Assembly (NCBI GenBank): GCA_003024175.1 | Contig: MDYQ01000108.1 | Location: 25,798-89,797, forward strand | Length of the DNA: 64,000 nt | Direction: 5' to 3' | Origin: Planoprotostelium fungivorum | Lineage: Eukaryota; Evosea; Variosea; Cavosteliida; Cavosteliaceae | Shown: positions 21,547-63,900 of the stretch, piece by piece | Layout: every line of letters begins with the position of its first letter | How positions within the stretch are numbered: position 1 is the first letter of the stretch | Notes under the pieces: model-generated | The model's database searches: none | Seen by the model: the letters and a program-made list of their open reading frames with translations, nothing else | Told to the model about the DNA's origin: nothing | Made by a program: the position numbers and the translations under genes

Positions 21547-22157
21547 CAGATAGTGCTTTCAGTCACCTCGTGAGAAGAAGCGACCTTCTTTGGGTTCCCG
21601 TTGCTTAGTTGTTCTGTTTCTCGCAACCGCTTTTTTTACACAGATTTCCATGGCACCGAAATCTGTATAACTTAGATGCATCGCAGATGTGGTGAGGATA
21701 GATTGCGGAAATCTCCTCCAAATGGCTACAATTAAGTCCCTTACGAACTTCTTAGGAAGGGTTGTGTTGCACCACTCTGTCAACTCCTTACCCCGAATCA
21801 TAGATAAATCTCTTAACCCAGCCTCCTTGGCGCTCTCCTTGTGCCTGCTCCGTATCTTACTTGTACGCTTTGCCTATGGTTGCTCGTTTCTTCACTCTTT
21901 CCGTCGTGGGTACATGTTGCTAAGACAACCCACCCAAGCAACACCCGCAGCTGGATTCTCAAGAGTTTGAGCAGAGAAGCGGAGTCACAAACACCGCCAC
22001 TCCTGATGCGTGAGCCGTCCGATCACAAATGAGGGGGAGCTCATGTGGTTGCACTTCCTAATTGCGAGGGAGGGAGTGGAACCTTTGGTAGAATTTTAGA
22101 GAGAATCGTCTGCGCATTCCTATTTATACGAAAGACCATGGAGTGACCCAAATCAAG
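21547..22157. promoter_or_regulatory. Divergent promoter region between RFX and the PH-like gene
   Basis: A 611-bp spacer between divergent starts. Two small opposed open frames (21559-21801 minus, 21689-21970 plus) have no recognisable family or splice logic and are left out. The imperfect dyad GTTGCTAAGACAAC lies at 21916-21929. No repeat or RNA gene is seen. Confidence 0.45.
21916..21929. promoter_or_regulatory. X-box-like imperfect palindrome
   Basis: GTTGCTAAGACAAC compares with the RFX X-box consensus (GTNRCC, a 0-3 nt spacer, then RGYAAC) with a 2-nt spacer and one mismatch in each half. It lies upstream of the RFX gene itself and of the divergent PH-like gene. Autoregulation is possible, but a match this short can arise by chance. 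Confidence 0.3.
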
Positions 22158-27529: not shown

Positions 27530-30226
27530 TCATAGGTTCAGGTTTTCGTAATCTTGCCTCCAACCCAACAGGTCTACGAGCTGGAGCGCACCATCGTCAC
27601 AGGCACCTAACAGAGCCACATCTCTGTAGTTCTCCTCTCTCAACGACTCCACCTCCTCGTAACTCTTCCACACCCCTACGGCATCCCTGTTGATCAGCAG
27701 TCTCGCCGTCTTCGGCTCCACTTGGTTCACGAGAGAAGCGAACCTGACCTCACATCAGCCACGTCACCTCCATCGATCACACTCACGGATAGACGACGAG
27801 AGAGGTTCCAGCCACGATGAGGAGGTCACACTCCTTGATGTCTTGAAAGTAGTGATCTGTGTAGCGTTTGGGGAGCCCCTCGCCAAAGAAGGTGACGTCG
27901 GGTCGAACGGTGGAGCCACAGATGCACTGAGGCACAGAGTTGATCGATACGGCCTGCCAGAAGTCCTGGGCTTTGTCAGAGGAGAAGAAGGAGAAGGACC
28001 AACCTCCATATCTGCCGCTCTGTTGCAAGACATGCAGCGGCCACTCGCGAATGAGCCGTGAGCGCAGATGACTTTCTCTTCTGTGGAATCTCAGTTTTCC
28101 ACTCGTCGTGTACAGTCACCTGCGATGCCTGCGGCAGATTCGAGGACGTCGATGTTCTGAGTGTAATTCCTCAATAAGACCCCCTTCTCTTGGAATAAAC
28201 GGATGAGCTTGTGCATCGGTGTGGGTCTACCCATTTTCGTCATCAAACGAGAGTCAAGAAGAGAGAGGTGTCCCACTTGATTGCACCCGTTCTGACGGGA
28301 TAGAAGATGTCCCTGCAGATGGAGAAGAAAGGCTTCGGGTTCTCGTGGAGTTGAGCGAGGTCGAACGCCTTCGCTGGATCTGTCATTCCGTAGCGTCCTC
28401 CCACTTCCTTCGAATAGATTCCATTGGGACTCCTGAAATCAGGTATGCCGGCGCTGACTGATATACCGGCACCCGTGAGGATGACCACCTTCTTGAATCT
28501 TCCCTCTCTGATGCCCCTCGCGATGCCTTCTACATCGACTTGACCTCCCAAGACACTCGTTCTCTCTTCTTGACTCAGATTGTTTCTCAGCCTCCTCTTC
28601 AGCTGCTGCCTGGGTTTCTTCGCATCGAACGAATCGAGGTAGAGTGGCGAATTCTCTGCGATCTTCTTTCTCAGTAAATTGAAGGAGGGAGGGTAACCGT
28701 CCGAGGATGCGGCGTAGTGAAGGGACGACCAGCCGATGGATGACTCGTAGGTGGGATCTGCTCCCTTGCTCAAGAGATACTGCACCATGAAGAATGCTCT
28801 CTCTCTCTCCCTGCACGCCGCAATGTGGAGTGCCGTACAACGATCTTCCCCTGAGTGATCCACGATGGCGCCGTGGGAGAAGAGGAGGTCAGCCGTGGTG
28901 ACGTAAGCTTCCTCTCTTCCCTCCTTCCCGTCGATGTAACCTTGTACCAACTTGTGCAGTGCCGAATAACCGTCGTAATCCAACGAGTTGACCTCCGCTC
29001 CACAGCGAAGGAGTTGTTCGACCATCTTTCTCTCTCCGTTCCTGGCTGCCATGTGCAAGACGGTCTGACCGAACTGATCGACATCAGAGACACTGGCTCC
29101 TGCTTGGACGAGGAGTTGAAGAGCATCTGAGTGACCTCGCAATGCGGCCTCGTGAGAGGGAGTGTTTCCGTCCGACTTCTTCGTGTGGAGGACGAGGTGG
29201 GCGTCGGGTGAGGCGATCATGAGCCTGATGATGTCCACGTGGCCCTTGGCCGCAGCGTCGTGGAGGGGCGTGCCGCCAGCACTGTTTGTTGCGGTGATGT
29301 TCGCTCCACTCTCTAAGAGCCTCCTGAGGGATGGGTCAGGGTTCTGTTGGTGGTGAAGGATGATGATGACGAGACTTTGATGAACGATGGAGATGATAGT
29401 GAAGATAACAAAGTAGACACCTGACAATGGAGAGGTGACCGCTCATGGTGGCAAAACCTAAGGCGGTTCTTCTGTAAGGTCCTGCCTTGTCTTCCATCAT
29501 GCAATCTTCCTTCTTCTCCAATAATATGTTGACGATCTCATCGTGTCCGTTAGCACTCGCGATGATCAGAGGAGTAAAATCTGTGGGTCTCAGATTCTCA
29601 TCTCTTTCATCCCCGTCACCTTTATCGGTCTTCTCTCCCCTCGTTGCACCCAGACTCAGTAACTTACGAGCTCGCTCTGTGTCTCCAACCGAGATGCAGA
29701 CATGAAGAGGTGTCCATAGATTCTCTGCATTCCGTCTGGAAATGGAGGATGGATCTGTGTTCAATATCTGGAGGAAAGTAGTGTTACCACGGTCGCCAGT
29801 CTTGCAGGCGTGATGGATGGGAGACCATCCATTTGCATCCGTGTCGGACAAACTGGCACCCAAGTCCAAAAGAGCTAGCAGAACCCTTGGTCTTGAATCT
29901 CTGGCAGCCATCATGATGGGCGCAAGTCCCTCTCTATCCAGATCATTCAATTGGCATCGACACTCGGGATGGGAGATGATCCACTGCACGATCTTCTCTT
30001 CAGTAAGATGTGGTTTCGATAAGAGTGAGACCAGGGTTGGGTGGGAACCTTGAGATCGCCTCCAAAGGAGATAGGTCGTGACGAGTATGGAAGCTACTGC
30101 AGCAGAGATTATGTATGGTGAGTCGAAGCCCATCTTGTTTCTGATGACTTCGTGTGTCCAACGTCCACCCCGAAGGACGAATGCGATTCGGTGAACGAGT
30201 CGAGTCATGAGACGTCGCAGTCCCAA
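27530..30226 (-). CDS. Membrane-anchored ankyrin-repeat sirtuin (SIR2 fusion)
   Basis: A protein of about 850 residues. A hydrophobic anchor, [18 protein letters not shown], lies near the N-terminus, followed by RRSQ. At least eight ankyrin repeats follow ([74 protein letters not shown]). A full SIR2 deacylase domain completes it: [27 protein letters not shown], catalytic histidine in ICAHGSF, zinc cysteines CMSC and [12 protein letters not shown], and [12 protein letters not shown]. Both NAD-binding and catalytic residues are present, so it should be active, SIRT2-like in motif style. A later methionine at 30133 would put the anchor right at the N-terminus and may be the true start. The intron near 29340-29440 joins the two ankyrin blocks. 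The protein is probably tail-in-cytosol on a membrane (inference). Confidence 0.82.
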
Positions 30227-30459
30227 AGTTCATTCATATCATCTGAAATCCAGGCTGATGGTGATTATAAGACGAGTATCGTATCATATTCCGCTTTGGC
30301 GTCATCGATGTGGCTGGTTGATCACACAGTCAGATCGGTCACGTGCAGATCGAAAATAAAATCGGTGTTCATCGAAAACTCTCCTCCTATCCCACATCAT
30401 CACCACAGCACAACATCAACATAACGACGATACGCCCCATTTTACGTTCTATCAGATCA

Positions 30460-38556: not shown

Positions 38557-38639
38557 TATAAATATTCTTCTGTTCCACTCTTTCTCTATTGAAAAGTACA
38601 ACATCCATTCGAGTGTAAGAGTGTGAGGGACATGTACAT

Positions 38640-41600
38640 TTATTTCTTCTCTGGGGGTTGAATGAGATCGTAGAATTCATTCCAAGAGAGATACATCCTT
38701 CCCTCTCCTCCATACTTTTCCCTCTCTGATGTTCTGTTCGGTCCCACCAGAATATCTCCCTCCTCTGGCTTCTCCACGATGCTTCCTCTCCCCAACTGCA
38801 TTCATTCAGACTAATGGATAGAGAGATACAGATAGAGATACAGTAGAGGATAGAGAGACACAGATACAGTAGAGAGATAGAGAGATAGATACAGTAGAGG
38901 AATAGAGATACATACAGTGGTGACAATGGCCTTGACTTGAGCGAGAGACTGACATCCCGTGTGATCGTTGGATAGCCACACCTTCTTTCCCTTGAAGGGT
39001 GAATCCCTCTTGGGTTGACTGAACTCTGTCTCCAGTACAAAATATCCTACTCTCTTCAGTCTCATCCACTCTTCACGATGTGTTCCACTGTTCATCAATG
39101 ATTCACGATGTGATGTGTTCCACTCTCCGTCACGATGATCCATGATGTGATGTATTATCATCGACGATGTGATGTGATGAGATCACCTGCTTCAGTGGAA
39201 GCGATGATCCACGAGGGATCGATGACCCATCGTTGAGTGAGATGGGCTGCCATGGTCTTGGATGTCCTCGTATTGTGAGGACACACCATGTGTGTGATCT
39301 TCGCATCGTACGCATCATCCAACCTCGCCTGCTCTCATCAGCCTCACATCGTCGATGTCACATCACCTCTCCTCCCAGTAACGTGATTCGATCCGCCAGA
39401 TCATCCATCAACGATTGCATTCGATTGTCCTTCCTGAACCCAGTGAAACTGACGACGACTGTCTCTCGTCATCTACACCGTTGTAGATGGACCTCACCTC
39501 TCCTGCACGTGCTCTTGTCCCTCACGATCTTCTCCTTGTGGGGTGATTCTTCACCGTGTAGAGGAGTAGAGGGTAACATGTCTGATGCATCTGGGATGAT
39601 CACCTTCGCTTTCTTCTGTGGAGAAGGTACGTCTCTCTCCTGATGGTGTGAGAAGTGGCTCGTTGTAGAGGGACGTACCTCGGGGGAACTGTCGATGTCC
39701 TCGACGAGGGCGGAGCGCTTCCGTGATTCGTCTTGTTTCTGCGATTTCGCGTCTGCGACCGTCTTCTTCTTCGTCGCCTGCGACGATTTGACTCCCACCC
39801 TCTTGATCGTGTCAGTCACGTGACTTCCTATGATATCTCACCTTGGATGCCGGCTCCTTCCTCTTGGTCTTCTCTGTGATATCTTCCTTCTTGTTGCTCT
39901 CCTTCTTCTTCTCGGGTGTATTCGGCTTGACGAATTGTACCGTCTTCTCCCTCGGGCTCTCGTCCCTCGCAATTTTTCCCGCCTTTTCTGGTGGGCGATC
40001 TTGATTGGGTGCATCACATCCAGATTGCTTCGAAATTTCAGTCGTGGAATTGGATGAAATCTCACGTCTTCATCGGATGTCACGTTGATCGCCTCGATCC
40101 TCCTCGCTGCTTTCTGGAATGGACTCAGATTCCTACCCTAGATCAATCTTCATCCATCTACAACGCTCACTTGTCTGAATTCTTCTCGGCCAGCTGCTGT
40201 CTCAACAGCTCCAAGGTCTTCTTCATGTTCTCGTTCTGCTTCTTCAGTATGTCCCTCTCCTTCCTGTACCTCTCCTGACTCTCCCTCTTCTGTTCCATTC
40301 AACACCCTCTTCCTCTCTCCTCCTCACCTTCTTCTTCGTCTGCGTGCTATCATCCTCCTCTAATTCATAATCGTCAACGGATCCAAAATATTCCGCCTGC
40401 TTCTCCATCATCGTCTGCTTCTTCTCTTGTGACGTCATCGTCTTCGCGGGTGTCGACTGCACTCTGTCAGGCTAAATATAGATTCCTCCCCCCACCTCCG
40501 TCTGTTGTGCCGCCGTGACTTCTTCTTCGTCCTCTCGAATTCTCTTCTTCAGGTCGCGTGTCTGCTGTTCGCTCAAGACTCCCGGCGTCGTGTCGAGGAC
40601 AGATACGATGGACAAGAACTTCTCCACTCTTCCCTTGTACTCCTTGATGGTCACCTTCTGTGACGTGTCAGGAGAGAAGAAGATACACATCTCACTCTCA
40701 ATAGCCTCTCGGTGAGATATTTGATGGACTTGATCTTCTCGGGGGGTGTCGTCTTTGGAATCTTGAAGCTGGAGAGGGCTTGGGTCAATCGACCGTAGTT
40801 GGCTGGTCGTTCTCAGTGATAGTTGATTTCACACGTACCTACCGTCGTTTCGGTTGTGGAGTTTGACGATGATGTCTTCACAGAGGTTGGGGTGGCTCTC
40901 TGGTGGAACGAATTGCATCAGATGATCGCAGAATTGATTCAACTGAGGGGGTGAGTATCCTATGTCTACGAGGTATGTCTCACTTGAATGGGATACAGAT
41001 TGGATGACTTGGGTGCCTTGGAGATAGAATCCAAGGCGATGACCAATGCACCTCTCATCACCTCCTTTGTTCTCTGTCAGTTCCTCGTGTGGCTGAATTC
41101 TCACCGGTTTCTTGTTGCAGTAAGACTGTAAGACCTGCTCCAGACAGGAATGGAGCATCTCGTTGCCGGGTGTGTTGATACCCCCTCCGAACAAGAGCAA
41201 TAGCTTAGAGAACATCTTATCCCTCATGTCCCCCAGTTGTTCCGCCAACAGAAGCTTGACGACTGTCTCTACCGCAGCCATCTGTAATCCGCTGTTATCT
41301 GATACCAACAGCTACTCCTATTCAGCTTTCCTCCCCTCCTCATCACCTTCACCTGACTGAGGACAACGAGAGCTGAATGTCCGGACACTCTCTTCTGCTT
41401 CTCCTCTGGCGCCTGCGTGGGCTGGCTGAGATAGTCGTTGGCGTCTTGTGATAGCAGATCGTCGAAGCTTTCAGCCTCGAAAACGTCGAGACCGAAGACG
41501 ATGAGTAGATCGCAGATGACCTTCACAACTGCGATCTTGACGCTGTCACAGTCGCTTTCTAACATTCGAAGGAGGAGACCGCTGTACCTCCTCGTGACTT

Positions 41601-43851
41601 CCTGTGAAGAGTGAGTGGATGAAAGAGAGAGGAATATGACCTTCTTGTAGAGACAGCACAGACCGAGGGGGATGATGGAAGCTTCTCTGATCTTCTTCTT
41701 TGGTGATTGGATTCCCTTCAGTATGACGTTGGGAAGTAAATCCACTGCACCGGGGTCGCGTAATCCCTTTGATGGATGAAACCACGATCTGCTGCGAACT
41801 CTCACCGTCTTTGTGTTTTGAAGAATGGTCTTGGCGATCTCCAGACATCTCAGCATTACCCCCTCTCCTTCCTGTTTCTCTCCTTCCAGAGGATCGTTGA
41901 TCTCTGATATGGACTCCAGGCATACCTGCAAACATTCACATCTTCTTCAGTACGAGACGATCACCTGCATGAATTCACTGCTCGAGCAGATGCGGCGTAG
42001 CAACTTCATAATGATGGCGGTGATCTTCTCGCTCAACTGTAGATCCAACAATAAATCCACTGTTCAATTCGATGAGAATCAAAATCTTCGATTCTTCTCA
42101 CCAATGGCAATCCTGAATTCGCGACGTCCGGCTTCATCGGCAAAGTCCAGTAAACCTCCCAATAAGAGAAGCTGCTCGAGGATATATTCATCCTCTTGAT
42201 AACTCGCCAAGATCTTTGCAAAAATGGTTGTCTCGGGCACCAGCGATTCAAATTTATCCTCGTCCTGTGAAGCATAAACAAATAAACAGCGAATGGGAAG
42301 AGGTACCTTGAGTTCAAATTTTACGTAATTGCAGTGCATTCTCCAGATGAGAGCATCTTCTTTCGTCAACTTGGACCAGTTGTGCTCTACCACCACCTAC
42401 ACAGAGTCATTCCTCATTCATTTTGTCCAATGTTGCGCTTACATTCGGATTATCTTTGAAGACGTACATCAATACCGTCTGTGCTACTTGTGGATTTGCT
42501 TCTATGTCTAACATCTCCAATAACTGATCGACGGTCAGACGTTCCAGTGTGAAAGATTTACCTTCGTGACGCTGCCGTTGATGCGATTCGATTTCATCCA
42601 GTGATTAGTGATCATCTGACTGGCAACCTTTCTAACTGCAGGACTCTTATCCATCAATCCCTCTCTCGCGAGCTCGATTCGAAATGATATCTTCATCTTG
42701 GCGACGGGGACCAATCTGAACCGCAGGTGAGAGGCGATTTCGTAAAAGGGTTTCGTATGGGTATTCACCTTCCAACGTTGAGGATGAGATGTTTTCTGAC
42801 TTCATCGGAGACATCATGAAGCCTCTCCATCACGATGGGAAGGGTGAGCGCTGTCAACTGTATAGCTGAGATGACCGCCTTTCGGACGTCCCTGTGACGA
42901 TCATCACGGTGAAATGGGATCTCACGCGAAGGAGAACTCACACGCTAGTATCTGTACGAAGAGTCTTGATGTATAATTGGGTAACTCGGTCTTCCTTTTT
43001 CGTGGCATCTTGAAGTCGAGACAAGGCATCGACCGCCTGTACTCGGACGGCGGGATGCTTGTCGGAAACTCTTTCTGTCATCTCCTCTTCCAGTCTATCC
43101 CAAAGAGAGTTGCTGTGTCGGTCACGATGGAGGTGAATATGATTTGGGCTCACTCGATCTCGGTCAGATTTTTCATGAGACCGGCTATGATGTTGCAAGT
43201 TCGAAAACGAACTCCTTTGTCTTTCGCATTGGTCATCGGTAACAGGTAATTGATTAGATCATGGGCGAGAGACTCTTGTTCTTCCTCCACTGGAATAATT
43301 TCATGAATGAAATGCTTGAATTTCTCACGATCGTATGTTGGCTCCTCTTCATCAGAGATCTCTTCCTCCATTGATTTCTTTCCATTGTTTTTCTTCTTAC
43401 TGCTAGCGTTTTTCGAACTCGTTTTCCTCTTCTTGTTGACGGGCTGGGTTTGCATTCAATTGATTTGTCAAACATCCAATCATCGATTTACCTCTTCGCT
43501 GGCGTTGTCATCCGCCGCGACGATTTTCTTTGTGATTTGAACTGTTGTCTCTACCACGAAAACGACCAATCTCTCGATGGATGGCTCTCTCTTCCCAACC
43601 GAAAGTATCCTCTTGATGTGCAAGAAGAATTCCTTTCTAAAGAGTGCTGGGTCTAAGCGGAAGAGAGTGACCATACTCTTTGCACAACGGGCGTGAGATC
43701 CTAGAGATCTCTGTGCTTGATCGAGTAGTTGACACATTTGGTGTCTTATCCCCTCGAGGCGTCGCTGTTGAGCGGGCACACGAGTCATGTTCGCCAGTTG
43801 GTTGTCGTCTGATAATCTGGTCGCGTGACCAGCGAGAAAATTCGGGATCAT
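38640..43851 (-). CDS. NCAPG: Condensin subunit CAP-G fused to C-terminal BRCT domains
   Basis: The CAP-G part (about 43850-40690): REPSIERLVVFVVETTVQ, NYLLPMTNAKDKGVRFRTCN, VSDKHPAVRVQAVDALSRLQ, GLMDKSPAVRKVASQMITNH, EDALIWRMHCNYVKFELK, EASIIPLGLCCLYK, NPLCEDII-like HEAT repeats. This is the HEAT subunit of condensin that compacts mitotic chromosomes. The frame then continues without a break of phase through YLTERLLR, KVTIKEYKGRV, a Lys/Glu-rich region, and VVVSFTGFRKDN into a BRCT pair: YDAKITHMVCPHNTRT, HLTQRWVIDPSWIIASTEA, then FVLETEF, FKGKKVWLSNDHTG, and the end DLIQPPEKK (TAA 38640). Checked joins all keep phase. The family usually ends after the HEAT domain. The start could also be at the later NMTRV methionine. 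Confidence 0.8.
38815..38920. repeat. Purine-rich microsatellite in an intron
   Basis: The plus strand shows irregular runs of AGAGATA and GATACAGTAGAG units. They fall in the intron before the last BRCT exon of the condensin gene. Reads in this part may be slippage-prone. Confidence 0.75.
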
Positions 43852-43960
43852 TCCAGGAATATCTACATCTACAACATAGAATTCCACATTCATTTCTCTT
43901 CAATTTATTTTCAAAACTTTCTCTACATAATGTACACTATGAATCGATGCACAGTCATTC

Positions 43961-48939: not shown

Positions 48940-51900
48940 TTATTCTGATTTATTCAGAACCAGACAGACACCCTGCAGTGTCCAATGTGAAGGATGATCT
49001 TGAGTGGGAAGGTCTGCCTCAAAGACTAATCCAACCCCCGTTTTCGTGCTCCTCTCTTGTGTCGTGTAAACGGGTGTCTTGAAGGTGTTCTGCAGCTTCA
49101 ACTGATGGGACTCCACCGGTATGACTTGGATCACCGGCATATCTATGAGCAACTGTTTCGGCTCTTGTCTGACCAACTTGTGCTTGACGGGGTCCCAGCC
49201 TGCACCTTCCATAGACAGACCGCTGATGTAACAGCCTTGCTCTGCCTTCGTGACGATCTCGTCGGGGGATTTGAAGGAAGTGACTTCGGTGAAGAGAGTC
49301 GTCTTGTCTAACGGCCATCCGTTCTTTCTGCAGGCGGTTTGGATGAGGGCCTTTAAGAAGGACTCTGGAACGTGTAGACCAGACAGCCAGATGACCTGGA
49401 GAGTCAGTCAATACAGCAGTGGAGGTGTTCAGATGATGATGACGTCCTTGATCGTCGTGATGGGATTGGGTGATGATGAGACGCCTACCTTTGGCTCTTC
49501 CTTGATCCAGTTGGAATATTGTTCGAAACGCTTCATGAAGTGTACGATCCAATTGGACAGACCCATCTGCGTCGAAGGTGCCCTCTTCAACCACATGGTG
49601 GGAACGGCTCCCACAAAGAGTGAGGTGGAAAACTCCTCGAGATCCGAGGATAATCCGATCTCTCCTGACAGGGCCTGCTGGAGCTGCTGTAGAGTAGACC
49701 GCATACAGTCGATCAGAATGTTGAACCTCTCTAATTCCTGGAGTAATACCACGTGAGTGGGTGATAAATTGGTCCCCAGCATCTACAACGAGTCAATCTC
49801 GTGAAACTCTACGCATCTTCTCACCTTGCTGATGGTGCTGATGTTGAATGGCTCGGGCAATCTTGATTGAATTCCCGAGGCAATGGTGGACACATATCCA
49901 TCGCGGCCGACACCAGCGACACCGACCTCCTCGCTCTGCTGAGCCTGCATGAAGACGAGATTGTTCAATATCTCCGAAGAAGCGTTCGTGTAATAGCTGA
50001 CTTCTGCGTTCGAATGTAAACCGAATACTTCTGGTGAATTGATGTGCGGTAGAGCTTCGATCGCTGAGACGTACTTCTGTACTGGTCCATCCGAAGGGAT
50101 AGAATAGTTCACCTGTTGAGAGTGTCACGAGGAGACCACCCTCGAAAGTGTCTCACCTTCTCGTCGTTGTAAAAGTGGAAGGGTTGGAAGGTATCGAACA
50201 AGAAGTCACCCATGTACTCATCGAGGTACGTCTTCAAGATGCGACGATCGAAAGTGTCCGTAACACGTCCTCCGTACATGACCTGCTCCCTTCAGCTTCA
50301 TCTTCCTTCTCTCTCTCACCTCTCCAATGAGATATCTCAGGGAACCCCAGGGTATGACCTTGTCTCGATTCTTCGTTGCCTTCGTGAGATAAGTGGACAG
50401 CAGCATGAGGGAGCTGGCGAAATCGGATTCGTTGAAATCGTAAGGGATGTTCCAGCCGATGTAACCGTACTTTCTTCTCTCCTGCACCACGGCGTGGAAG
50501 AAGGCTAAGACGAAGACGAGGGGTTTGAAGGCCTTGTGCTGACACTGACCCAACGTCTCTTCGTTGATCTTGGAATAGCTGCTGCTCATGTTGAGCTTGA
50601 TACCGTTGGGAGGTTCCGTCACGACCTGAATTTATCAGATCGAGTCGGAAAGTAGGAATCACCTTCAGGGCGCGTTGTAGTATTCCAATGGGGAACTTGG
50701 GGGTGGGTTCGGTGGTCAGCCACACTCGGAATTCCTTGTGTGGTTTGTCTTGCAGTTTCTCCAGTAATTTCTCGAGGGTTCTCAGCCACGAGGTGAGCAG
50801 GTGACAGTTTTGAAGGAAGATCCATTGTCCCCTCGATGCTCCATTCTCCAAGAGAGACGCCGCGATGGGTCCTGATCGATTCAGCTGCGTGGAGCCACTT
50901 CTCCATCTCACCTTGGTTCTGTCCCAACGGATGCTCCTTCAGCTTCGTACCTCCGAATCCCAATTTTTCGGCCAGTTTTCTCACGTCACTGGCTGGATCC
51001 GCACCAGGTGACAGAATGAATATGATGGGTGCTGATGAAGTGCTGAGGTCGTAAATGTCTTGATATTTCACCACAGGAGGCTCTACGAATTTAGGGCCCA
51101 TGTTCTTCGTGACGAAGAGGGTGAGAGCGTTGTAGAGACGGTCCGTTCGGAAGCATCGAACGATGGCCAGTCGTTGCATGTCCGTCAGCTCCACGTTCTT
51201 CGGAACCGGAGGTCTGACCTCCTGACACGTGTCAGTGACGTCATCGAGGATGTTGATGACGTCATCACCTCTGGGTTGTCCAGGTTGTACCACTCCTTCC
51301 ATCTCGATTCTTTCATGAGGAGATTGTGCATGGCTCCCGTGAAGGGCTCTCCCAGGGTGACCAGCAGATTGAGATCTCTCCACCCTTGTTCGGGTAACCA
51401 CGAGGGGAAAGGATTCGGTGATGGAGATTTCTCCAGGGAGCTGATGATGTCATCGGATAAAATATCGAGGGAAACTCACCGATTACCCCGTAAGACCATC
51501 TGGAAGAGAGTCTGATCGATGGCACCATCACCGTTCATGATGCTGACGCACATCTGGAAGGCAAACATCAACTTGTGCCTCTCGAATAATCCCATGCAAG
51601 TGTACTGGAACACCTGATCACATCAGCATGAACCTATCAACGTACCTCACCTGAGTGGTCAGGGTGTCGACGATGTTTCTCAGTCTCTTCTGCAGGTTGG
51701 TATCGTAAGCGGCTATACCGAGAGACTTTCGGTATACATCCAAGAAAGAAGACAGGGCGTACTGGTACATCTCGTTGACCGAATTGAGGGTAGATAAGAC
51801 AGAGAAGATGATGGCTCCACGCTTGGCCACGGGAGTGTAACCCTCCCTCAATCTCTCGATGTCCCTTGCCGTATTCTTCGCTTCCTCTAGTTTTCCTGCA

Positions 51901-54900
51901 ATTTCCACCGATTTCTCCTTGGTTCCCTCCAGCGTGGCGATGAGATCACTGTTATCCAGCATCTGTCCAGTCGAAGAGGCAAGCTCGGCCAGCAGTGTGT
52001 CTTCAAAGTCCTATTCGAGTGAATCTGAAGAACTACCTCTACCTCCTCACCTTCAGCAGGGCACGATTCTCACTCATCTCTGCGACGAGAGTCTCTCTCC
52101 TGTGCTCCGTCTCGGGCTGTTCGAAACCAACGACGACGTTCAAGAGTTGATCTTGGAGGCCGAGTTGAGTGACGTTGAAATTAACGACCATGGTCTTTCC
52201 AAAGATACCGGGGGCGTAGTTGGGATTGCCAATCTTGGTGGTCATGTACAATCGGAAGTTGTCGTTCCAATCGACCTGTACACGTCAGATCGATGTGGAT
52301 GATGCGTGACATCACCTCCTTGTCACCCAAACGAATGATCTTTCTCGATCCGATGACCTTGATGTTCTTGTCGAGGACAACATCGAGTAGGGGATCGATG
52401 TATTCGTCCACACCTTCGATGAGCATGGGGACACCAAAGGTGATGCTCAGCTCCAACTGTTTCGCGAAATCTGCATCGTGGAAGGTTCGGATGACCAACT
52501 TGTGTTTCGCTTCCTTCTTGATGATCCAATTCACCGCTTGCATCTGTGGATCGATACACAGAGGCCACCTGTACCATTCAGAAGAGCTATAAATGATCAT
52601 AGACATACCGACTGGCACGAGTGGTGACAAGTCCATTCTGCACCGACAGCTCATCGTTGGGTAGACCCTCTGACATCCATTTCGAGATCTAACCACGTCA
52701 TTCTCTCCTCTTCATGCATCTCTCACCTCCACTTGATCCGTCAAGAGATCTTCCACCTTGTACTGATCCGACAGAGGGATGTTCTTCCCGATGACATCGT
52801 CCTTCCACATCTGCATCATCTCCTTCCTCAGCTCGAAATTGAAGGGTCCGGCGTAGGACAAAAAGGCGGCGGCCACGAGACTGTCACCCACCAGTCGGTG
52901 TTTCTTATCGGACAGTACTTCCATTTCCTTCGCCCATCTGACCCTCTCTGTTCCAAGGCCTGAGATGAGTTTGCTGGCGGCCACGAGACGCTTCTCCATG
53001 AGTTCAGCTTGCTCCCTCAATTCGGCCTGTTCGGCTGAACCCTTTGCGTATTGTGCCTCGAGGGTGAAGAGCTCTTCTGACAGGGCGGTGATCTCAGATT
53101 TGATCTGATCGAGATCTCTCTCGTTCTGCATCTGATTCTTCTGGGCCATCTCTACGTTCTTCCTCTTGGGGATGACGGATTTTGCCACGTTGTAGTACTT
53201 GATCATGGCCAACACCCACACGTTCAAGCCGTTACCTGCGATGGAAATCGACTCCATCTGAGTTCCCGCGTCGATCTTCTTCAGTAGATCTTTCACCGCC
53301 TTCACTTGTTTCTCCGAGATGGTGTCGGGGTTGAGGTCCGTCAGCTGATTCAAGAAACCGGTGGAGGCCATCATCGTCTTCGCTCCCTTCCACGATGCAT
53401 CCTTGAGGCCCAGTAAGATGCACACACACTGAGCCACCAATTGTACGGCCTTGTGGGGTGTTGCGAAAGACCTCAGCTCAGTGACGTCTGCCTTGGATAG
53501 ATTCTGCAGGGCCGCACGAGCTTCGGCCACCATGGGAAGTGCGGCCTCCAAGCTGGATTCGGCTTCCGTCTTCTTGGTTAAGATCTGGGCTTGCAGTTCC
53601 TTCAGCTCCCTCTCCTTTGCGGTGGCGAGGGCCTGCTTGACTTGTACCTTCGCCTTGTTCTCCGAGATGGCCACCAGGAGGTGGTTGTTCACTTCTGCTT
53701 TCTGATCTACGATGATCTTCTGGGTGACCAACTTGGTGTTCAGCTGATCTAAATAGACGGCAGCTTCGATCAATTTCTTCAGACCTCCGTCGAAGCGTTT
53801 GTGAGCGTCTGTGATCTTCTTCTTGTTGTCTCTCAAGAGTTCGATGTACTTGTTGATGTAATCCAAAAAGTTTGTGGGAGTGACGTAATTGTGTCGATGG
53901 AGTCTCTCCAATTTCGCACAGAAACCAGAGATGGACAAGTGAGTGCCCACCACATGGAAGATGACCTGGATGACGTCATCGTATGTTCTGTTGGGAGGAT
54001 CTCACCTGTTCTCTGTACTGTTCCGGTACACCCGATTGTTCGTCACCCAGCAGATTCGATGCCACTGCCTTCAGTGCTTGCTCTGGCCACTTACTGAACC
54101 AATCTACAACGGTGTTGCTGATCAATCCGGGGAAATTTCTGCATCTCTTTCGCAACAGCTCTCCTGGGCTCATGCACAGGATGATGTGGAGGTTGTTACG
54201 GCAACGGTTGATGAAGTAATTCCAGCAGTTCTCACGGCTGTCGGGTATTCTGGACTTCACAACTTCGTCTCGAATGACGTTGATGACGCTCTCCTTCTCT
54301 TCGTCTGTCAGCATGGCGGGAACCATACCGGAGGTCAACATGTTGTTGATGATTTCCAGGAAACCTGGGAGGGTGAGATTCCGGTGAAATGTCGAATTAC
54401 GTACCCTCCTTCACCACTTGAGATTCGGTGAATAGGAAGACGGTCTCCTTGTTTTCGATACCCAATATCGTGTACAGTTTTTTGAGATCCTCTTTCAGAT
54501 TGTTCTCATCGTATCCCTTCGATATGACCACCTCGAACAATTGGAATTTAGCCACGAAGGAAGCCAGTCTGGCCAGAGACTGTTTTCCACTTCCAGAGAT
54601 ACCAACCAGGAGGGCGTGACCTCTGGGCCTTCGGATGACTCTGAGAATACGCACGAGATGTTCGATGGCATCGTCAAAGAGGACCAGACTCATCGGGTTG
54701 TTCTTCTCGTTGTAGTTGAGTAAGGCATCCTCGAAAATAGGTCTCGCGGCGTCGTATGTGACGTAGTCCTCGAAAATGCGGACATTGTCGTCCAGCACCT
54801 GACCAACGTCAGTCTCGGCCGACGTTCTTTACCTCACCTTGAAGTCACCGAAGACCAAGGGATTCACCAGTGCAGAAGCAGCCTCTTCAGGGAAGAACTC

Positions 54901-57900
54901 TTGAACGAGATCGCAGATGGTGCTGCTGACAAACTGGCGGTCTTCTTCGTTGATGAGACGATCGTGGAAGACTCTCATGCACTCTTGTCTCCAAAGTCGG
55001 ACCATGGAGGCAGGCGAGTCGAACTTGTCGATGGTGGAGATGCATAGACCTTCAAAGATCCTCGATATGTCTCGAATGTTGAAGATGTAGTGGAACTTGG
55101 AGGGAGTGGGCAGCAGGCTCTTCGTGATGATGTCGTACAACTTGAGAGTCACAGTTGTCATCTTGGCCCCGACTTCTTTGATTGATTCGGAGAAAGGCTC
55201 CAGATGCTCCTCCAATACGGTGGAGAAGATACTACCCATGTCAGTCGAAATCTCCGTGAAATCTCACCGGTTCATCGTCTGGGCAGATGGGAAGGGAATG
55301 TTGATGACACAGAAGGCAGAGATGAATCGTGGATCTACAATGTTTCTACCACCACCGGGTGGACCCATGGCCGCGACAAACTGAACGTTTCTCATGTTCT
55401 TCCAGTTCAACTCTTTTCCTCGATCGTACAAGCCTCCCTTCTCGATGAGCAGCTTGAGGAGGGCGATGGGCTGCTGCGTGCCGTACTTGTCCACCGTGGG
55501 CATGTTGAGATCGTCGATGAAGATGACGAGTTGTTTGCCGGGGGATGGGCCGTATGTACCTTTCGTCCACCTCTCCACGTTGTACTCGATGGTCTGTTGT
55601 AGATCCAAGCTCGTGGTACGACTCGAGAAATTGATGTTGAGTCGAACGTAACGATCTTGGTCTAATGATTGCGTGTAGTTGTTCACCATCATGGTCTTTC
55701 CGGTACCCGATTCACCTGAAAGGGTCACGTGACCGTACGTAACGTGAGATCTACACTCACCGATGAAGAGTACGGGGACCTTGGCAGACATGGCGGTGTT
55801 GAGGAACCAACTGCTCCTCACCGTGTCCAACGTTGGAATGAGGATCTCGTGGAACTTCTGCTTCTTGGATGGTTTGTACGGTGTGATCTTGGATATCCAA
55901 GGCTGCCACCTTCCCTCTTCGCTCGAGAAACAATAATCGTAGAGTGTTCCAGACAGAGGTAGTGTACCTATCACATCAGAATGTTTGAAGGGATTAGATG
56001 TGCTCACCGGCCATGACATTACCCTCTTGGCCTTCGGTGAGGGGCCAGTCAGAGATGGACTTGACGTGCTTATCGAATGCAATTCTCGATTCCTCCTCCA
56101 AAGTGGCACCGAGAGACCACACGAGGGCGAAGATGAAGAGACTCTCTATGACTCTGTGTTCCAGCACGTCGTTCTCCTTTGTCAGTAGAATGGAGAGGAT
56201 AGTACACAGCTGCTTGATCATGGCTACCGGGATGATCGGAATCACCGTGCGCAATCGATCCAATGACAGTCCATTGGAAGCACCTGATACACTTCAGTGA
56301 GATTTCGGGTAGAGTTTACACTCACCTTCGAAGATGTAGTCGATGGTGGGGGGCACGTACTTTTCAAACAGAGAACGCAACGTGTCGGCTTCGTTCTTGT
56401 TTCGCTTGGCCATCCAAGAAGCAAAGTAAGGATGATATCCCGTGTTGAGTGGATCGATGTAGACCATTCCACAGCGACTCACCGTGGCAGGTGAAGCGTG
56501 CCTGAGATCCGACACCTCGAAGAGGAGGGAGCACTGTCTCTGCAGCCGAATCCTCTCTCCGTTGGGTAGGGTGAGCAACTTGTTGTCGTCCATGACGGAG
56601 TTCATGTTCTCCACCCAGATGGCATCGACGTCACCGTCGAACACGATGTACTTTAGATCTTTCTTCTCCGTGGGCTTGTTGCACTCTCTGATCGACATGA
56701 GAAGGAGAAGGAAAGAGAAAAGAAATCACCTGAAGATGTTGGAGAGTAAACCATCGGTCCAATCTCTCGTGTTGGGATCTAATACACCGTACAATTCGNA
56801 GGGTGAGCAACTTGTTGTCGTCCATGACGGAGTTCATGTTCTCCACCCAGATGGCATCGACGTCACCGTCAAACACGATGTACTTTAGATCTTTCTTCTC
56901 CGTGGGCTTGTTGCACTCTCTGATCGACATGAGAAAGAGAAGGAGAAGGAGAAAGAGAAGAGATCACCTGAAGATGTTGGAGAGTAAACCATCGGTCCAA
57001 TCTCTCGTGTTGGGATCTAATACACCGTACAATTCGTTGACAGTTTGGGCCTTTGGATTGAGTACGTACAGTTTTGTCGGAAGTCCGATGGCCGTCTGGG
57101 CTCGGGCTAAGGTCTCCAAGACGACCGTTTTACCTGAAATTTCGTGAGGAATTTGGAGATTCGGAGGATTCACCTCCACCGGTGGGACCGACCAGCATGC
57201 TGGTATGTCTCGTCTTCATCGTTTCGTACAGCTGTCAGTCTGAGTTCTCCACTACATTTCACCGACGTTCACCTGCATGACCTTGTCCACTTGATCGGGA
57301 ATGACTTGATAATCGTGTTCCTTCAGTGTGGTTTCGATGGCCTCGAATAACACTTGATTCTTCGCCTTCGGTACATCTAATCCGGGGAAGAGATCGTTGA
57401 TGAGTCCGTTGAACAACGCAGCATCTTCAAAGACGAAACGAGGCAAGTTCATGTCTTTCAGTGCCATGACCAGAACCACCTGAAGAGGTCATCTCAAGAT
57501 CGTTCCACACGTCGATCACCTGCTCTCCCAGCTCGGCGGCCTCCCTCTTTAGAGATCCTGCCCTCACTAGCACGGCCTTGAGTGCACGGAGACCAAAGTC
57601 GTAGTGGAACTGCTTGGATAACTGCTCCCTCGCCACCGAGTACAACACGGTCATCTTCCTCGCCAGTTGTTTCGCCTGCGTGAAACCTATTCTACGTCAC
57701 ACTTTTCTCTATCGAATTGGATCACCTTCAGAGAACAACATGATCTCGCAGATCAGCTCGAGATCGGGGACGACCATGACGACTGGACGGAACAGGGCCT
57801 TGAGGTTGTCGGGTAATTCGGTTCTTCCGGCATAATGAGGATTCATCGTGATGAATATTCCAGCCTTCATGTCCAGGGCGATGTCGTTGCCTTCGAAGGG

Positions 57901-60900
57901 AAGTCGACTGAGACCATTTCTCATGGCATTCTGGATCGTCTTGATCTGAACCGAAATGACAGAGAGGACTTCGGGGTCGATACGGTTGAACTCATCGAAA
58001 CAGCCCCAGCCTGTCACTCGTCAGTGACGTGGAATGATGTCACGCCACGTCATCACCTCCGCATTGTACGAGACCGGAGAAGATACTGCCCATGGTCGAG
58101 TAATCGAGACCTTCGCTGCAGTTGAACACGATGCAGTGTAGTCCGAGTGCTTTGGCCAAATCCTTCACCGTCTCCGTTTTTCCGGTACCAGCGGGGCCTG
58201 ATGGTGAGCCACCCAACTTCATAGATAAGGCTTGAGTCAATGTCATGATGCATCTCTCAGTGAGTGGAGTGACCACGAGCCTGCCAGATAAACCGAGGTA
58301 CTCGTATCCGTAATCGAACGACCCGTTGCACTGTCGGACTTGTACGTCGTCGATCTGCTTGTCCCAATAGTAACGGAGTTGGGACTCCCACTCGAACTCG
58401 CGAGCATCCAAGATGGAATCTTTGACGAAACGCTCGATGACGTCACGCTGGTACACGTCGATGATGATCAACGTGTTGACCTGCTCGCGTCAGATTCGGA
58501 ATCTCCGTGAGATTTCACCTTGATGCGGTCGTTCTCGGTCAGGTCCTTCCTGACCTCTCCAACGAGCTCGATCAGTCGTGACGCCAATTTTGCGCTCAAT
58601 TTCTTCATGGCGTATTTGTCTCCCTCTCGGATCTGCTGGAACGTGTCCTCTACCTCCCACGTCCACCACACTTGACTTCCCAGCAGTGTGATCATTCCCG
58701 GATAAGAGTACAGCCACTGCATCCTCTGTGTCTTGGGGTAGAAGAAGGTCGCCTCCTTGGCCGTGGCTCGCAGAGTTTTTCTCATCTCCGCCTCTACGGC
58801 TGACATCCACGATTCGACTTGTCCTTCGACGAGGACGGGTTGCCTCAGAGTGATCGCCTCTCCCTATCACCGTCAACTTCATCTACAACCCGCCAGGATG
58901 ATTCACCTGAGAGGAGATCATTCCAACGACGTTCCTCGTGTTACGGCTGGATCCGAATTTGAGAGCGATGACATTATCAAAGAGTTTGATCATGTGCTCC
59001 TGCACGTTCGTGGGATCTTGACTACCAATGATCGAAAGCAACTCATCATCCGAGATGAAGAAGAACCTGGGAAACGAATTCCTCTTGGTCAAGAGGTACT
59101 CGGACAGACTCTTCTGGCAGGTCTCCAGCTGCACGGCCAGACTCTTCAGTAGCTCCAGACGGTCCATCTGACAAGCCTCGAGAACGAGAGTGTTCTTTGC
59201 GGTCTCCATCATGATCTTCTTGAAGGTCTTGTCCACTCTCTCGAACCGCTTCGCTTCTTCGGGGAGTTGTAGACGGATGTCGTCGGCCATGAAGATGTTC
59301 TCGAGGTACATCCACTTCCTCTGCACTAACATCCACACTTCGGTGACCTGATTATGTCACGATCTACATCGTTGTAGAGAGTCACCTCGGCGATGAGAGA
59401 CAAAGTTTTCTCCCATTTCTGTACGGTGGTGATGAATGGGGACACGTATCGTGATGCACCCATGCTCTGTAGACTCATCGAGTTGTCATCGTATAGGACA
59501 GTGATCTCGTCGATGCTCTTCAAAATGTGGCCCTTGTCTTCACTTCCCTTGGCGTATTTCTGTATCTCGAATCGAATGCTCTTCCACGTGTCGGCGATCT
59601 TGGAGATACCGGCCTATCGAGTCAGTTCGATGAGTCAAGTGATCTCTCTTCACCTCGATGCTGAGCTCTTTCGATGCGGCGGATGTGATCTCCTCGATCT
59701 TATCTGCGTACATGTGCAGCTCCATCTTGAAGATGGATTCGAGGGTGAACGTCTTCGAGTTGGTCTGGAAGGACTGACCGGTCACCTCCATGAGACTCTT
59801 CCAGTGTCGGGGTCTCAGGGCCTCGTTCTTCAGATGGCGGAAGAGTGGAATGGACTCTTTGAAGCTCTGGATGAGGGTGGTTACGATGCTGTAAGGACGA
59901 TAGTTCTTCAGCTCCTGTGGGAAACGCTTCAGCTTCCCGACAAAGTCTTCGATTCCTTGGGAGAGGGCTTCGATGTCCAAGTCCACCCAGAGTGTGTTGG
60001 CCCATCGATTGATGGCCTCCTTCTGATCGTAGTACAGAGAATAAATCTTGGCCAGACCTGGTGTCTGTTGAGAGGGTGTCTCTTCACACGATCATTCGTC
60101 ACTCACCTTCCAGCTCGTTCTCCATCTCGATGAGCTCGGGGTATGATGTGATGGAGAGATTGAACAGCTTCTCGGCCAAGACGAATCCGTCTCTGATCTT
60201 ACCGTATCTCTGCAGTTCCTTCTGATACTTCTTCACCAACTCTAAACCGTAATCCATCTCGATATCGTTCGATCCTGATTGAGATGAGAAAAAAGAAGCC
60301 GGGAGCGGGTATCGATCACCTGGTCCGTTCTGTTGGAACATCTGCTTGAGCTTGTTGACTTTGCTCTGGAATTTCTTCACTTGCTTGATGGTGGTCTCAG
60401 TGAATCTGGACTTGACGGCAACTAAGCTCTCATCCACTTCTCTCGCTCTCTTCAATAGATCGGACCAAGTCAACGGTAAGCGATGGACCGTCTCGATCTC
60501 AGAGGAGGGTATGACAATGTTGTACATCTGAAGGGTGCGGTATCTCTCTTGGATGTCGGATATCTTGATCTCCATGTCCATCGAACTAGTCCACACCTAC
60601 CGTTCGTCAGCTTTCGTCGGCATTCAGATCTGATGATGAACGGAATAGATGATGTGATGTTGATGTGATGTCGATGTGATGTCGATGTGATGTCGCTCAC
60701 TTGATCGATGACGTTGAGAATAAACTTGAGATCATCCATGGTATCAGGAATTCGACTCAGATCTCCCTCCACCCGACTGAATGCCTCGATCAACTCGTCC
60801 AGATTCGCCTTCACCGAAGTGTGGAGCAACCTCCCTATAGAATGAACCCACGACGACGTCTCACTTCGAATGGCCGCCTCCAGCGGAACACAAGACACTC

Positions 60901-63900
60901 TCAGAAAGTTGATGTCCTTCTCGGTCGACAGGGCCTCCACCTCCATCCCCATCTTCGAGTAGAGGAGCAGCTTCGAATCGTAATCGACTACGGAGGGATT
61001 CTTCTGAGCAAACTTGTCTAGCGTGGGACCCTTGTCCATCTTCCAGAGGGGTTTGAATTTCTTCCAGCCGTCGAGATACTTTGAAAGGCGAGCGAAGGTG
61101 CGATTGACACCTTGGTTGAACTGAAAGATCGTCTTGATGATCTGAGGGTTGACCGAGATGTCCGTGAAGAAAGAGAAGACGATGACCTACGACGTCAATC
61201 CACATCATCCGATTCTCCTCACCTCTTCATCTTCCCCTACTACCTGGGGAGGTGTCTCCATGCAAGTACCGTCCATCCATCGGTAGAAGGGTCTCGTGCA
61301 TTCGATGATGTTCCTGATCATCTTACCCGATATCTTTGACACCTCGTTGAAAGAAGGTGAGACGATGATTTCGGGTGCAGACAGAGATGCGGTGATCTGA
61401 AAGACGATGGGTGAATGATCCGTCGACTCTTCAGAGGTTCCGGAGATGTTCCACAGGGATTGGAGGATGTTGAGGTTGCACAGGACCATTCGATTGAGAG
61501 CGTTGAAGACTCTCCTCTCCCAGAATTGATAGTAAGACTTCATGCGGGGGGATGCGAGGGTGTTCTTGTGTTCGATGATGCCTTCAATCTTTCCCAAGAG
61601 ACTTCCGATGGTCTTGTACTTCTTCACGATCTCCTCTACCACCTACAGATGGGGTCACCGTCTGAACGGTGTGGATGAGATTTCACTCACTTTTCCGTTC
61701 TCCTTCTCCATGGCATCGAGGAACTCTTGAAGGTCTAAGAGGTCGATGGTGGAGTGGGAGAGGGAGGGAGGGAGACGCAGTACACCGTCTTTCACTTGGA
61801 TGTCGGTCCTCGTGTTGAGGTAAGGAATGAGAATGGCATTCGCGATGGATTCCACGACGCCTCCGATCTGTCCCAAATCGATCAGATGGTTTTGGGACGT
61901 GACAGATCTCACCATAGATGCGTTCTTCTGGATCTGGTTGACGATGGACTGAAATTTGCTGATCTCTTGATCACATCGTTTGATGAAATCTGGGATGCCT
62001 AAAGAATTCCAATTGAGAGATTCAAACCCTGGTCTCAGAACGGTATTCAGCTCGTTGAGAATGGGGGTCAGTAGAGGCCATTCTGCCGGTGAGATCTTCT
62101 GCAGAACTGCGTTGTAGTTCCTCAACATGTTCTTCAGGCTGTCGACGTATCTTCCGAATTTCTCCTCCTGTCGACACTTGAGAAATCTCTCAGAAATCTC
62201 GCACTCACCTGCAACGTTACGTTCAATGCCGTCTCGGGTACCTTGAATCCCAGCTGGTCCAAATATTTGGTCTCCCTGATGATCGTCTGTAGATCTGGGT
62301 GAAAATTGATCTCGAACATGGGCCGTGCATTCTTCGCATCGACGATGCCATTCTTTCCATCGATGATGTCTTTCGGCCTCGTATCTACCAACACGGAATT
62401 TTTCAAGAAACCGAGGGCGATAGCCTCCACCGTCTCACTCCACTGTTTGAATTTCTACCCTCCGTCAGGAAAGTTTCCAGATTATTTCATCTACAACTCG
62501 CCTGTGCTTCGTACTCCCTCATCATTTTACCCAATATGAGGTATTCCTTCTTGACTTGATTTCCCGCGTCGGTGTCCAGCATTTCAGGTAGAGATTTAAA
62601 GCGTAGGATGGGTCTCTTGATTCTCTGAAACAATCCCTTGCACCAGATGATGGCCCCCGCCACCGGTGGTTGGTTCTTCGCCAGAGGTGGACTGTTCATC
62701 TCCTTTTCAAAGATCTCTCTCACTCTCTGCAGCTCGATCGTGTATCTGTATGTACTGTCAATGGACGCTCCATCGCACATCCATCACCTCTTGAGTACGT
62801 CCGAGAATTTATCCATCATCTGTTTGTTGATGACGGGACGTGATTTGAGGTTTTTAAAGTTTTGCAAGAGTTCGAATGCACCTTCGGCCGATCTCAAATT
62901 ATTGAAAGCCGCATCGATGAATTGCTTCGTCATGTCTTCGATGGACAAGACGTTCTCGTTGAATCTTCCCATGACTGTCTCCCAGCTGGTCTGGTATCTC
63001 TTGTCGAATACCTGTTGTTGTCAGAGATGGATGTGAAGAGAGGGTACCTCAAAGTTGACCGACTCGATAGAAGAGATCATCTCTTCGACTCGGAGCAACA
63101 CTTGATCGATCCTGTGGGAATCACCAGTGACAGCTGTTCACGTCAGATCTTCCCACCGATCCTCCATCACCCTTCAGCTCCGGACCCAAAATGACGTGAA
63201 ATTGCTCCAACACGGCCGACACGTCCATGAGGTCAGCACATCTCTCAGCCATGTAGTCCGTCTGATCGAACATCTTCTTTCTGTCAAACTCCCAGCGATC
63301 ATCACTTCCGGACTGCTCGATCTTCTCCCGAACTTCGAAATACGTCTCCTTCCACTTTTCTAGGACGTCTCTCGCCTGCTGGATCTTTCTCTTTCCTTCG
63401 TTGTCTCTCAGGACGTTGGCCACGTTGACGGACTATCGATCGATTTAGAGGGTGAAGGTGAAAAATTGCGTCTCACCTCTGAAACTTTGTTGGAGATCTC
63501 CCAGGCGATCCTCTCCAAGAGGGGTGTCATGTATTCGTCTCGGTTGTAATATCTGACCGTGATGTGAGATGATGAGAGTTTGTGGTGGCATCACCTCGAG
63601 ATGATCCACACCATTCGGAGGGCGTTCATCATGGAGGGAAGTGTCTCTTTGATGGTGACGAGTGTACCCTGAGCGATGTTCTTAAAATGTCTTTCCAGAG
63701 TGGTCAGAAACTTAACATTGTCCTGTGCTTCGAAATGCAGTTTCTGTAATTCGCTCGTCACGGTGATGAACGTGTTTCTGGCGGGAGAGTCTCCATTGGC
63801 CTGTCGAAACATCAGCGACATCCAACTGGAAATGCATCTCACCACTTCTAGCACATCGAGCATCTTTTTCAGCAAGGGATTGTTCAACTGCTCGTAAAGA

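Follow-up and report, generated by a model that had tools for sequence, protein, structure and literature searches.

The window analyzed here is a 64,000-nucleotide (nt) stretch of DNA from Planoprotostelium fungivorum (assembly GCA_003024175.1, contig MDYQ01000108.1, positions 25,798 to 89,797 of the forward strand). On its minus strand lies a predicted gene in which the condensin subunit CAP-G appears to be joined to a C-terminal tandem BRCT region. By sequence, the gene has a CAP-G body, a coding-like linker and a first BRCT repeat (BRCT1) with the residues of a phosphopeptide pocket, and the genome contains a separate, canonical CAP-G. What we propose beyond this domain content we infer. 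The gene and its parts are as follows (aa, amino acids):

38640-43893, minus strand: whole gene model, predicted, with 27 exons, 1,345 aa and an exon table with phases.
40696-43893, minus strand: exons 1-16, CAP-G HEAT repeats and Cnd3 domain, aa 1-853.
43113-43153, minus strand: intron 2, 41 nt; its acceptor keeps EIDNSLWDRL, aligned to EIDESLFNLL of budding-yeast Ycg1.
40457-40495, minus strand: intron 17; if it is retained, CAP-G ends QTEVGGGIYI-stop, at the TAG at 40,474-40,472.
39498-40657, minus strand: exons 17-23, charged linker, aa 854-1163, about 310 residues.
39187-39464, minus strand: exons 24-25, BRCT1, with Pfam and PDB profile matches.
39439-39444, minus strand: T1170-G1171 of FTGF, aligned to FTGF of PTIP (3sqd).
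39257-39268, minus strand: R1216-T-S-K1219 (RTxK), aligned to RTVK of PTIP (3sqd).
38640-39070, minus strand: exons 26-27, second BRCT repeat (BRCT2), unrecognized by profiles, terminating at the TAA at 38,640.
38639-38644, minus strand: AATAAA that overlaps the stop codon; no other AATAAA or ATTAAA lies on the strand between 43,909 and 38,300.

The model runs from an ATG at 43,893 to the TAA at 38,640, and its BRCT region (exons 24-27, 39,464-38,640) comprises residues 1163-1345; residue numbers on the printed chain were counted by hand. A first-pass annotation had placed the start of the gene at 43,851, but this is Met15 of the model, whose first Met lies at 43,893. Conservation with other CAP-Gs begins after Met36 (43,788), making Met36 a possible conserved start. 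All but two of the 26 introns are 33-53 nt long, and the median is 40 nt. The two others, of 116 and 120 nt (39071-39186 and 38796-38915), both fall within the BRCT part, and by eye their sequence looks simple and repeat-like. Intron 2 has an alternative acceptor 18 nt downstream, use of which loses six residues, changes one and opens a gap at the position of a pocket known from Ycg1. The upstream acceptor also gives the better match to human CAP-G (222.9 bits with an 818-residue query versus 205.6 bits with an 899-residue query made with the downstream acceptor). The Pfam scan of the whole protein and the splice-rule shuffle, synonymous-codon, AATAAA and C13-pair tests described below used the model with the downstream acceptor; the linker and BRCT region are identical in both models.

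The CAP-G body is readily recognized. The Pfam Cnd3 model matches with E = 8.9e-39 (133.9 bits, cut-off 25.8). In the PDB, the protein matches human CAP-G (6igx_B, E = 7.6e-65), its fission-yeast counterpart (9.4e-47) and budding-yeast condensin subunit 3 (2.1e-27), and each of the five PDB sequences that reach E <= 0.001 is a condensin subunit 3. The receptor pocket of Ycg1 is described as M145, I148, I151, F156 and F185 (PMC11791182), and these positions align to M224, L227, I230, W235 and L264 here. Condensin2nSMC, the domain of CAP-G2, is not among the nine Pfam matches of the protein at E <= 1, and the same scan gave no match to the Microcephalin central domain. Like CAP-G, NCAPG, Ycg1 and Cnd3, the protein has HEAT repeats and a Cnd3 domain, and most of the length of this part aligns to the human and yeast structures. 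Unlike them, it has a C-terminal BRCT region and, by eye, a lysine-rich insertion near aa 125-190.

The BRCT region is more divergent. Scanned alone, it matches the Pfam BRCT family at BRCT1 with 21.9 bits (cut-off 21.3), and the family RTT107_BRCT_5 matches BRCT1 with 20.7 bits, under its cut-off of 27. The best PDB match of the region alone is PTIP (E = 0.0063). We also built a two-row profile (A1) from the BRCT region and a homolog encoded elsewhere in the genome, on contig C13. The best matches of this profile are TopBP1 BRCT7/8 (1.9e-5), PTIP (2.2e-4) and BARD1 (5.9e-4), followed by SLF1 (0.0013) and trypanosome KKT4 (0.0039); the five printed alignments, all to TopBP1, span BRCT1 only. 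The whole pair aligns with the pair from C13 over 184 columns with 32% identity (pairwise E = 2e-26). Because both repeats align together, the BRCT unit was probably inherited as a pair. In addition, the score of BRCT2 against the start of the second repeat of PTIP was reached by none of 2000 shuffles. The first-pass annotation had described a CAP-G reading frame that runs into a tandem BRCT and had suggested a search with Cnd3 and BRCT models. The open spliced frame, the Cnd3 domain and BRCT1 bear this description out, whereas the second repeat escapes both Pfam and the two-row profile.

BRCT1 retains residues expected of a phosphate pocket. We take FTGF and RTVK of PTIP to lie at the positions of the MDC1 pocket, so that T1170, K1219 and R1216 would correspond to T1898, K1936 and R1933 of MDC1; the alignment was made to PTIP only. 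In MDC1, T1898 and K1936 hold the phosphate of gamma-H2AX, and R1933 holds the +3 carboxylate (PMC4013092). Through the PTIP alignment, the phosphate-holding Thr and Lys and the +3 Arg of the MDC1 type are thus present, and a BRCT1 with putative phosphopeptide-pocket residues is supported. PTIP, TopBP1 BRCT7/8 and Rtt107/Brc1 resemble the region in their BRCT1 sequence and in the FTG and RTxK pocket. They are separate multi-BRCT proteins, whereas a single pair is built into a subunit of a structural maintenance of chromosomes (SMC) complex here, with a BRCT2 that profiles do not recognize.

The linker bears on whether the two halves form one gene. The G+C content at the three codon positions (GC1, GC2 and GC3) follows the order GC3>GC1>GC2 in all seven linker exons (17-23) in the frame of the model and in none of the seven in each shifted frame; across the whole gene, 19 of 27 exons show this order. 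Such support from codon-position composition is independent of splice rules. The region from 39,300 to 40,700 has a single place in the genome, and therefore there is no repeat that would favor a false join. The linker contains a stretch that, by eye, looks like coiled coil (approximately aa 951-989), and it holds 9 of the 14 sites in the protein at which serine or threonine precedes proline (S/T-P sites). The count of nine in-phase joins between YLTERLLR at the HEAT end and VVVSFTGF at the start of the BRCT region needs correcting, as the model has eight introns there (16-23). The first-pass annotation saw no start-codon context between the two parts, but in-frame ATGs are present in the linker, and an inner start is therefore possible. 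One candidate for an inner promoter, the CRE-like octamer TGACGTCA at 40,430, overlaps an inner in-frame ATG. It is disfavored because it occurs seven times in the window, mostly in sequence that looks coding by eye.

Several genes elsewhere in the genome bear on what the protein might do. A second gene with a Cnd3 domain, on the minus strand of contig C107 (G000:C107:147020-147853 and around; L015), encodes a canonical CAP-G with a serine- and glutamate-rich tail. It matches human CAP-G with E = 2.1e-73 (251 bits) over residues 28-722 of a modeled 844, and a six-frame profile scan of C107:136000-153500 found no BRCT at E <= 1. Because this gene exists, the fused protein is a CAP-G paralog and not the sole CAP-G of the organism. 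The two CAP-Gs score 200 bits against each other, below the score of either against human CAP-G (223 bits for the fused protein, 251 bits for the other). The duplication is therefore not recent, or one copy has diverged fast. CAP-G2 is encoded on C49, the site of the single Condensin2nSMC match in the genome search, and no BRCT was found in the 9.9 kilobases (kb) scanned at that locus. The kleisin CAP-H gave five matches, all on C173. Among the histones, an H2A on C444 (L013:1474-2172), which has an H4 gene beside it on the opposite strand, ends SSSSQDF-stop and would itself count as an H2AX-type histone. The H2A C-terminal family has two matching loci, the second of which looks like H2A.Z by eye. 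The homologous BRCT pair on C13 (G000:C13:98174-98341; L023, L025) lies near the C-terminus of a long coiled-coil protein, according to lists of open reading frames. By the same kind of list, a near-identical copy is found on C94 (G000:C94:54121-54279; L024, L026). The C13 and C94 copies lie on opposite contig strands and may reflect either recent duplication or two alleles that were assembled separately.

We also noticed a 9-mer, CGTTGTAGA, that is far more frequent than chance predicts. Counting both orientations, it occurs eight times in the window (0.35 expected), at 39479, 39661, 40157 and five other sites, with three in introns 23, 22 and 19 of the gene. It occurs 16 times on C107 (L015, 9.9 kb; 0.05 expected). 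CGTTGTAGA might be a signature of introns that are spreading, or a regulatory site, and its excess on both the contig of the window and C107 is a hint that the two come from one genome.

Based on these observations, we lean, with modest confidence, toward the view that the gene is a second condensin I CAP-G paralog that carries a C-terminal tandem BRCT on an S/T-P-rich linker, giving an alternative condensin I with a built-in phospho-reader. On a shared CAP-H kleisin, the fused protein could compete with the canonical CAP-G and would substitute for it, assuming that it binds CAP-H, and the BRCT pair would bind a phosphoserine mark and so bring condensin to that mark or hold it there. The likeliest single target would be the phosphorylated tail of H2A (SQDF), that is, gamma-H2A. 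In fission yeast, Brc1 is reported to bind gamma-H2A and to recruit Smc5/6 via Nse6 (PMC8075580); a single polypeptide might do for condensin what the separate Brc1 does for Smc5/6. The SLF1-SLF2 and Brc1-Nse6 systems, as described there, share with our proposal the use of BRCTs to bring an SMC complex to sites of damage (PMC8075580). They differ in that the SMC complex is another one and that the adaptor is separate there and fused here, where the function would be a predicted one. We put forward only tentatively the more specific idea that the organism has two forms of condensin I and that the BRCT form, acting at damage, reads gamma-H2A (pSQDF) itself without an adaptor. Tethering to a phosphorylated mark, as the first-pass annotation suggested, is plausible because the first repeat keeps the phosphate-binding residues; the binding itself is a prediction.

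A number of results weigh against a fused CAP-G that reads a phosphorylated mark. The gene model was read from genomic DNA alone. BRCT1 is close to the Pfam cut-off, and in the scan of the whole protein it scores 18.1 bits, under that cut-off. BRCT2 alone matches no Pfam family, and its own two-row profile matches no BRCT in the PDB; the score of the C13 BRCT2 against PTIP was reached by 1680 of 2000 shuffles. Chains of MDC1, MCPH1 and BRCA1 are not found at E <= 1 in the PDB lists (19 entries for the two-row profile), and a Brc1 chain appears only at E = 0.98. The argument from in-phase joins is also weaker than the first-pass annotation implied. The frame is indeed open, but openness is weak proof in itself, as we found by making 500 dinucleotide shuffles of the stretch 40,657-39,465 (introns 17-23) and counting open frames under each splice rule. 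If any GT..AG intron of 33-60 nt was allowed, 334 of the 500 shuffles were open, and 40 of 500 were open with GTR donors and introns of 33-48 nt. With GTRNG donors and introns of 33-42 nt the real sequence was open and no shuffle was (0/500), and with GTGAG donors only, neither the real nor the shuffled sequences were open. The splice rules were picked after the model was known. Synonymous codon use did not separate the frames, the bias being too weak, and did not do so for left-out chunks of the HEAT part either. Lastly, what speaks for the gamma-H2A step is the pocket and the H2A tail, and phosphoproteins other than gamma-H2A can also be ligands of BRCT pairs of this kind.

A rival reading is that two adjacent genes lie on the same strand, one a CAP-G paralog that ends in an unspliced intron 17 (at about 40,472) and the other a coiled-coil protein with a tandem BRCT that starts at the ATG at 40,438. 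Intron 17 invites this view: its donor, GTGGGG, differs from those of the other introns, its retention would give a protein of the usual CAP-G length, and the in-frame ATG in exon 18 (40,438) follows its TAG by 33 nt. A homologous BRCT pair also occurs in the C-terminal part of a coiled-coil protein encoded separately in the genome, and the list of open reading frames suggests that the upstream neighbor may end about 70 nt before the gene, so gaps between genes here can be short. Nonetheless, the exons that flank intron 17 share one frame in which they look coding, and a promoter for the second gene would have to sit within CAP-G exons. Base composition points the same way, with a GC content of 0.46-0.59 in 100-nt windows from 39,500 to 40,700 versus 0.36 just before the start of the gene, although values of 0.37-0.38 also occur within the gene. 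There is, moreover, no AATAAA or ATTAAA at the supposed end of CAP-G; between 44.2 and 38.3 kb on the minus strand these hexamers occur only at 43,909 and 38,644. Their absence over the 1.2-kb linker counts for little, because the number expected there by chance is, roughly estimated, below one. We regard two genes as unlikely. We think it very improbable that the gene is a decaying or non-functional CAP-G duplicate that captured a cluster of BRCT exons by chance. The existence of two CAP-G genes, of which the C107 copy scores higher against human CAP-G (251 versus 223 bits), would fit such decay. But the 27 exons contain no frame break, the linker has a coding-like composition, and pocket residues are retained in both the HEAT body and BRCT1. 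The mutual score of the two CAP-Gs, below that of either with human CAP-G, also implies that the copy has probably been kept for a long time.

A different question is what a real fusion would bind. Mitotic kinases regulate condensin, and the BRCT pair might tether a mitotic partner phosphorylated by cyclin-dependent kinase (CDK), or the protein's own S/T-P-rich linker, and so adjust condensin activity during mitosis, with no role in damage. The share of S/T-P sites in the linker (9/14) and this general control of condensin by mitotic kinases would suit such a role. There is also a precedent that counts against a purely gamma-H2A-based reading: the phospho-binding BRCT residues of fission-yeast Mdb1 are described as serving at the spindle midzone independently of gamma-H2A (PMC4013092). 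The H2A of this organism, however, has a tail with an SQ motif and a final aromatic residue, and the pocket contains the Arg and Lys with which MDC1 recognizes the +3 carboxylate and the phosphate, respectively. Mitotic tethering without a damage role thus seems to us possible and rather doubtful.

The first-pass annotation had also proposed that the fusion is a Rosetta-stone link to MCPH1, the animal regulator of condensin II. This comparison is not supported. MCPH1 is reported to regulate condensin II through a short NCAPG2-binding motif and to be found only in metazoa (PMC8673838), and the Pfam Microcephalin model gave only a sub-threshold match in the whole genome (E = 0.0095, C131). The fusion here is to a CAP-G of the condensin I type, the CAP-G2 locus shows no BRCT in the 9.9 kb scanned, and among solved structures the BRCT region is closest to TopBP1 BRCT7/8 and PTIP. 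There is a likeness, in that MCPH1 is a BRCT protein tied to a condensin G subunit and its C-terminal BRCTs are reported to bind phosphorylated H2AX (PMC8673838). In contrast to the protein described here, MCPH1 is described as using a short motif on CAP-G2 and as inhibiting condensin II.

We found no BRCT-bearing CAP-G in the literature, as covered by titles and the beginnings of abstracts, with most subscription journals and bioRxiv outside that coverage, and the architecture may already be present in sequence databases. Collections not meant to hold eukaryotes have no bearing on whether the fusion is shared by relatives. Viral contigs searched with the BRCT profile gave 64 pattern matches, non-eukaryote genome contigs searched with the Cnd3 part gave 362, and none of either set was confirmed; phages gave one record, at E = 0.2.

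To survey neighboring genes, we scanned 20 of the 33 open frames of at least 170 aa with Pfam. On the minus strand, 28246-29442 combines ankyrin repeats with the beginning of a Sir2 domain within a single frame (Ank 2.3e-33, SIR2 4.6e-10), an apparent ankyrin-sirtuin fusion as predicted from its domains, and an overlapping frame (29339-30229) has further ankyrin repeats. Also on the minus strand, 19591-21558 encodes an RFX transcription factor with its DNA-binding and BCD domains in one frame (2.3e-34 and 6e-84). At 50237-62434, again on the minus strand, five frames, out of a set of ten scanned together, match domains of dynein heavy chain, perhaps from a single large gene.

The gene bears on how condensin is targeted to particular chromosomal sites. 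In budding yeast, targeting is reported to work through the docking of receptor motifs on Ycg1 (PMC11791182), and a G subunit that brings a phospho-reader of its own would offer a different, built-in route. Because the canonical CAP-G is also present in P. fungivorum, the two condensin forms could be compared in one cell. If the BRCT form does read gamma-H2A, loop extrusion would be aimed at broken or stalled chromatin without the need for an adaptor.

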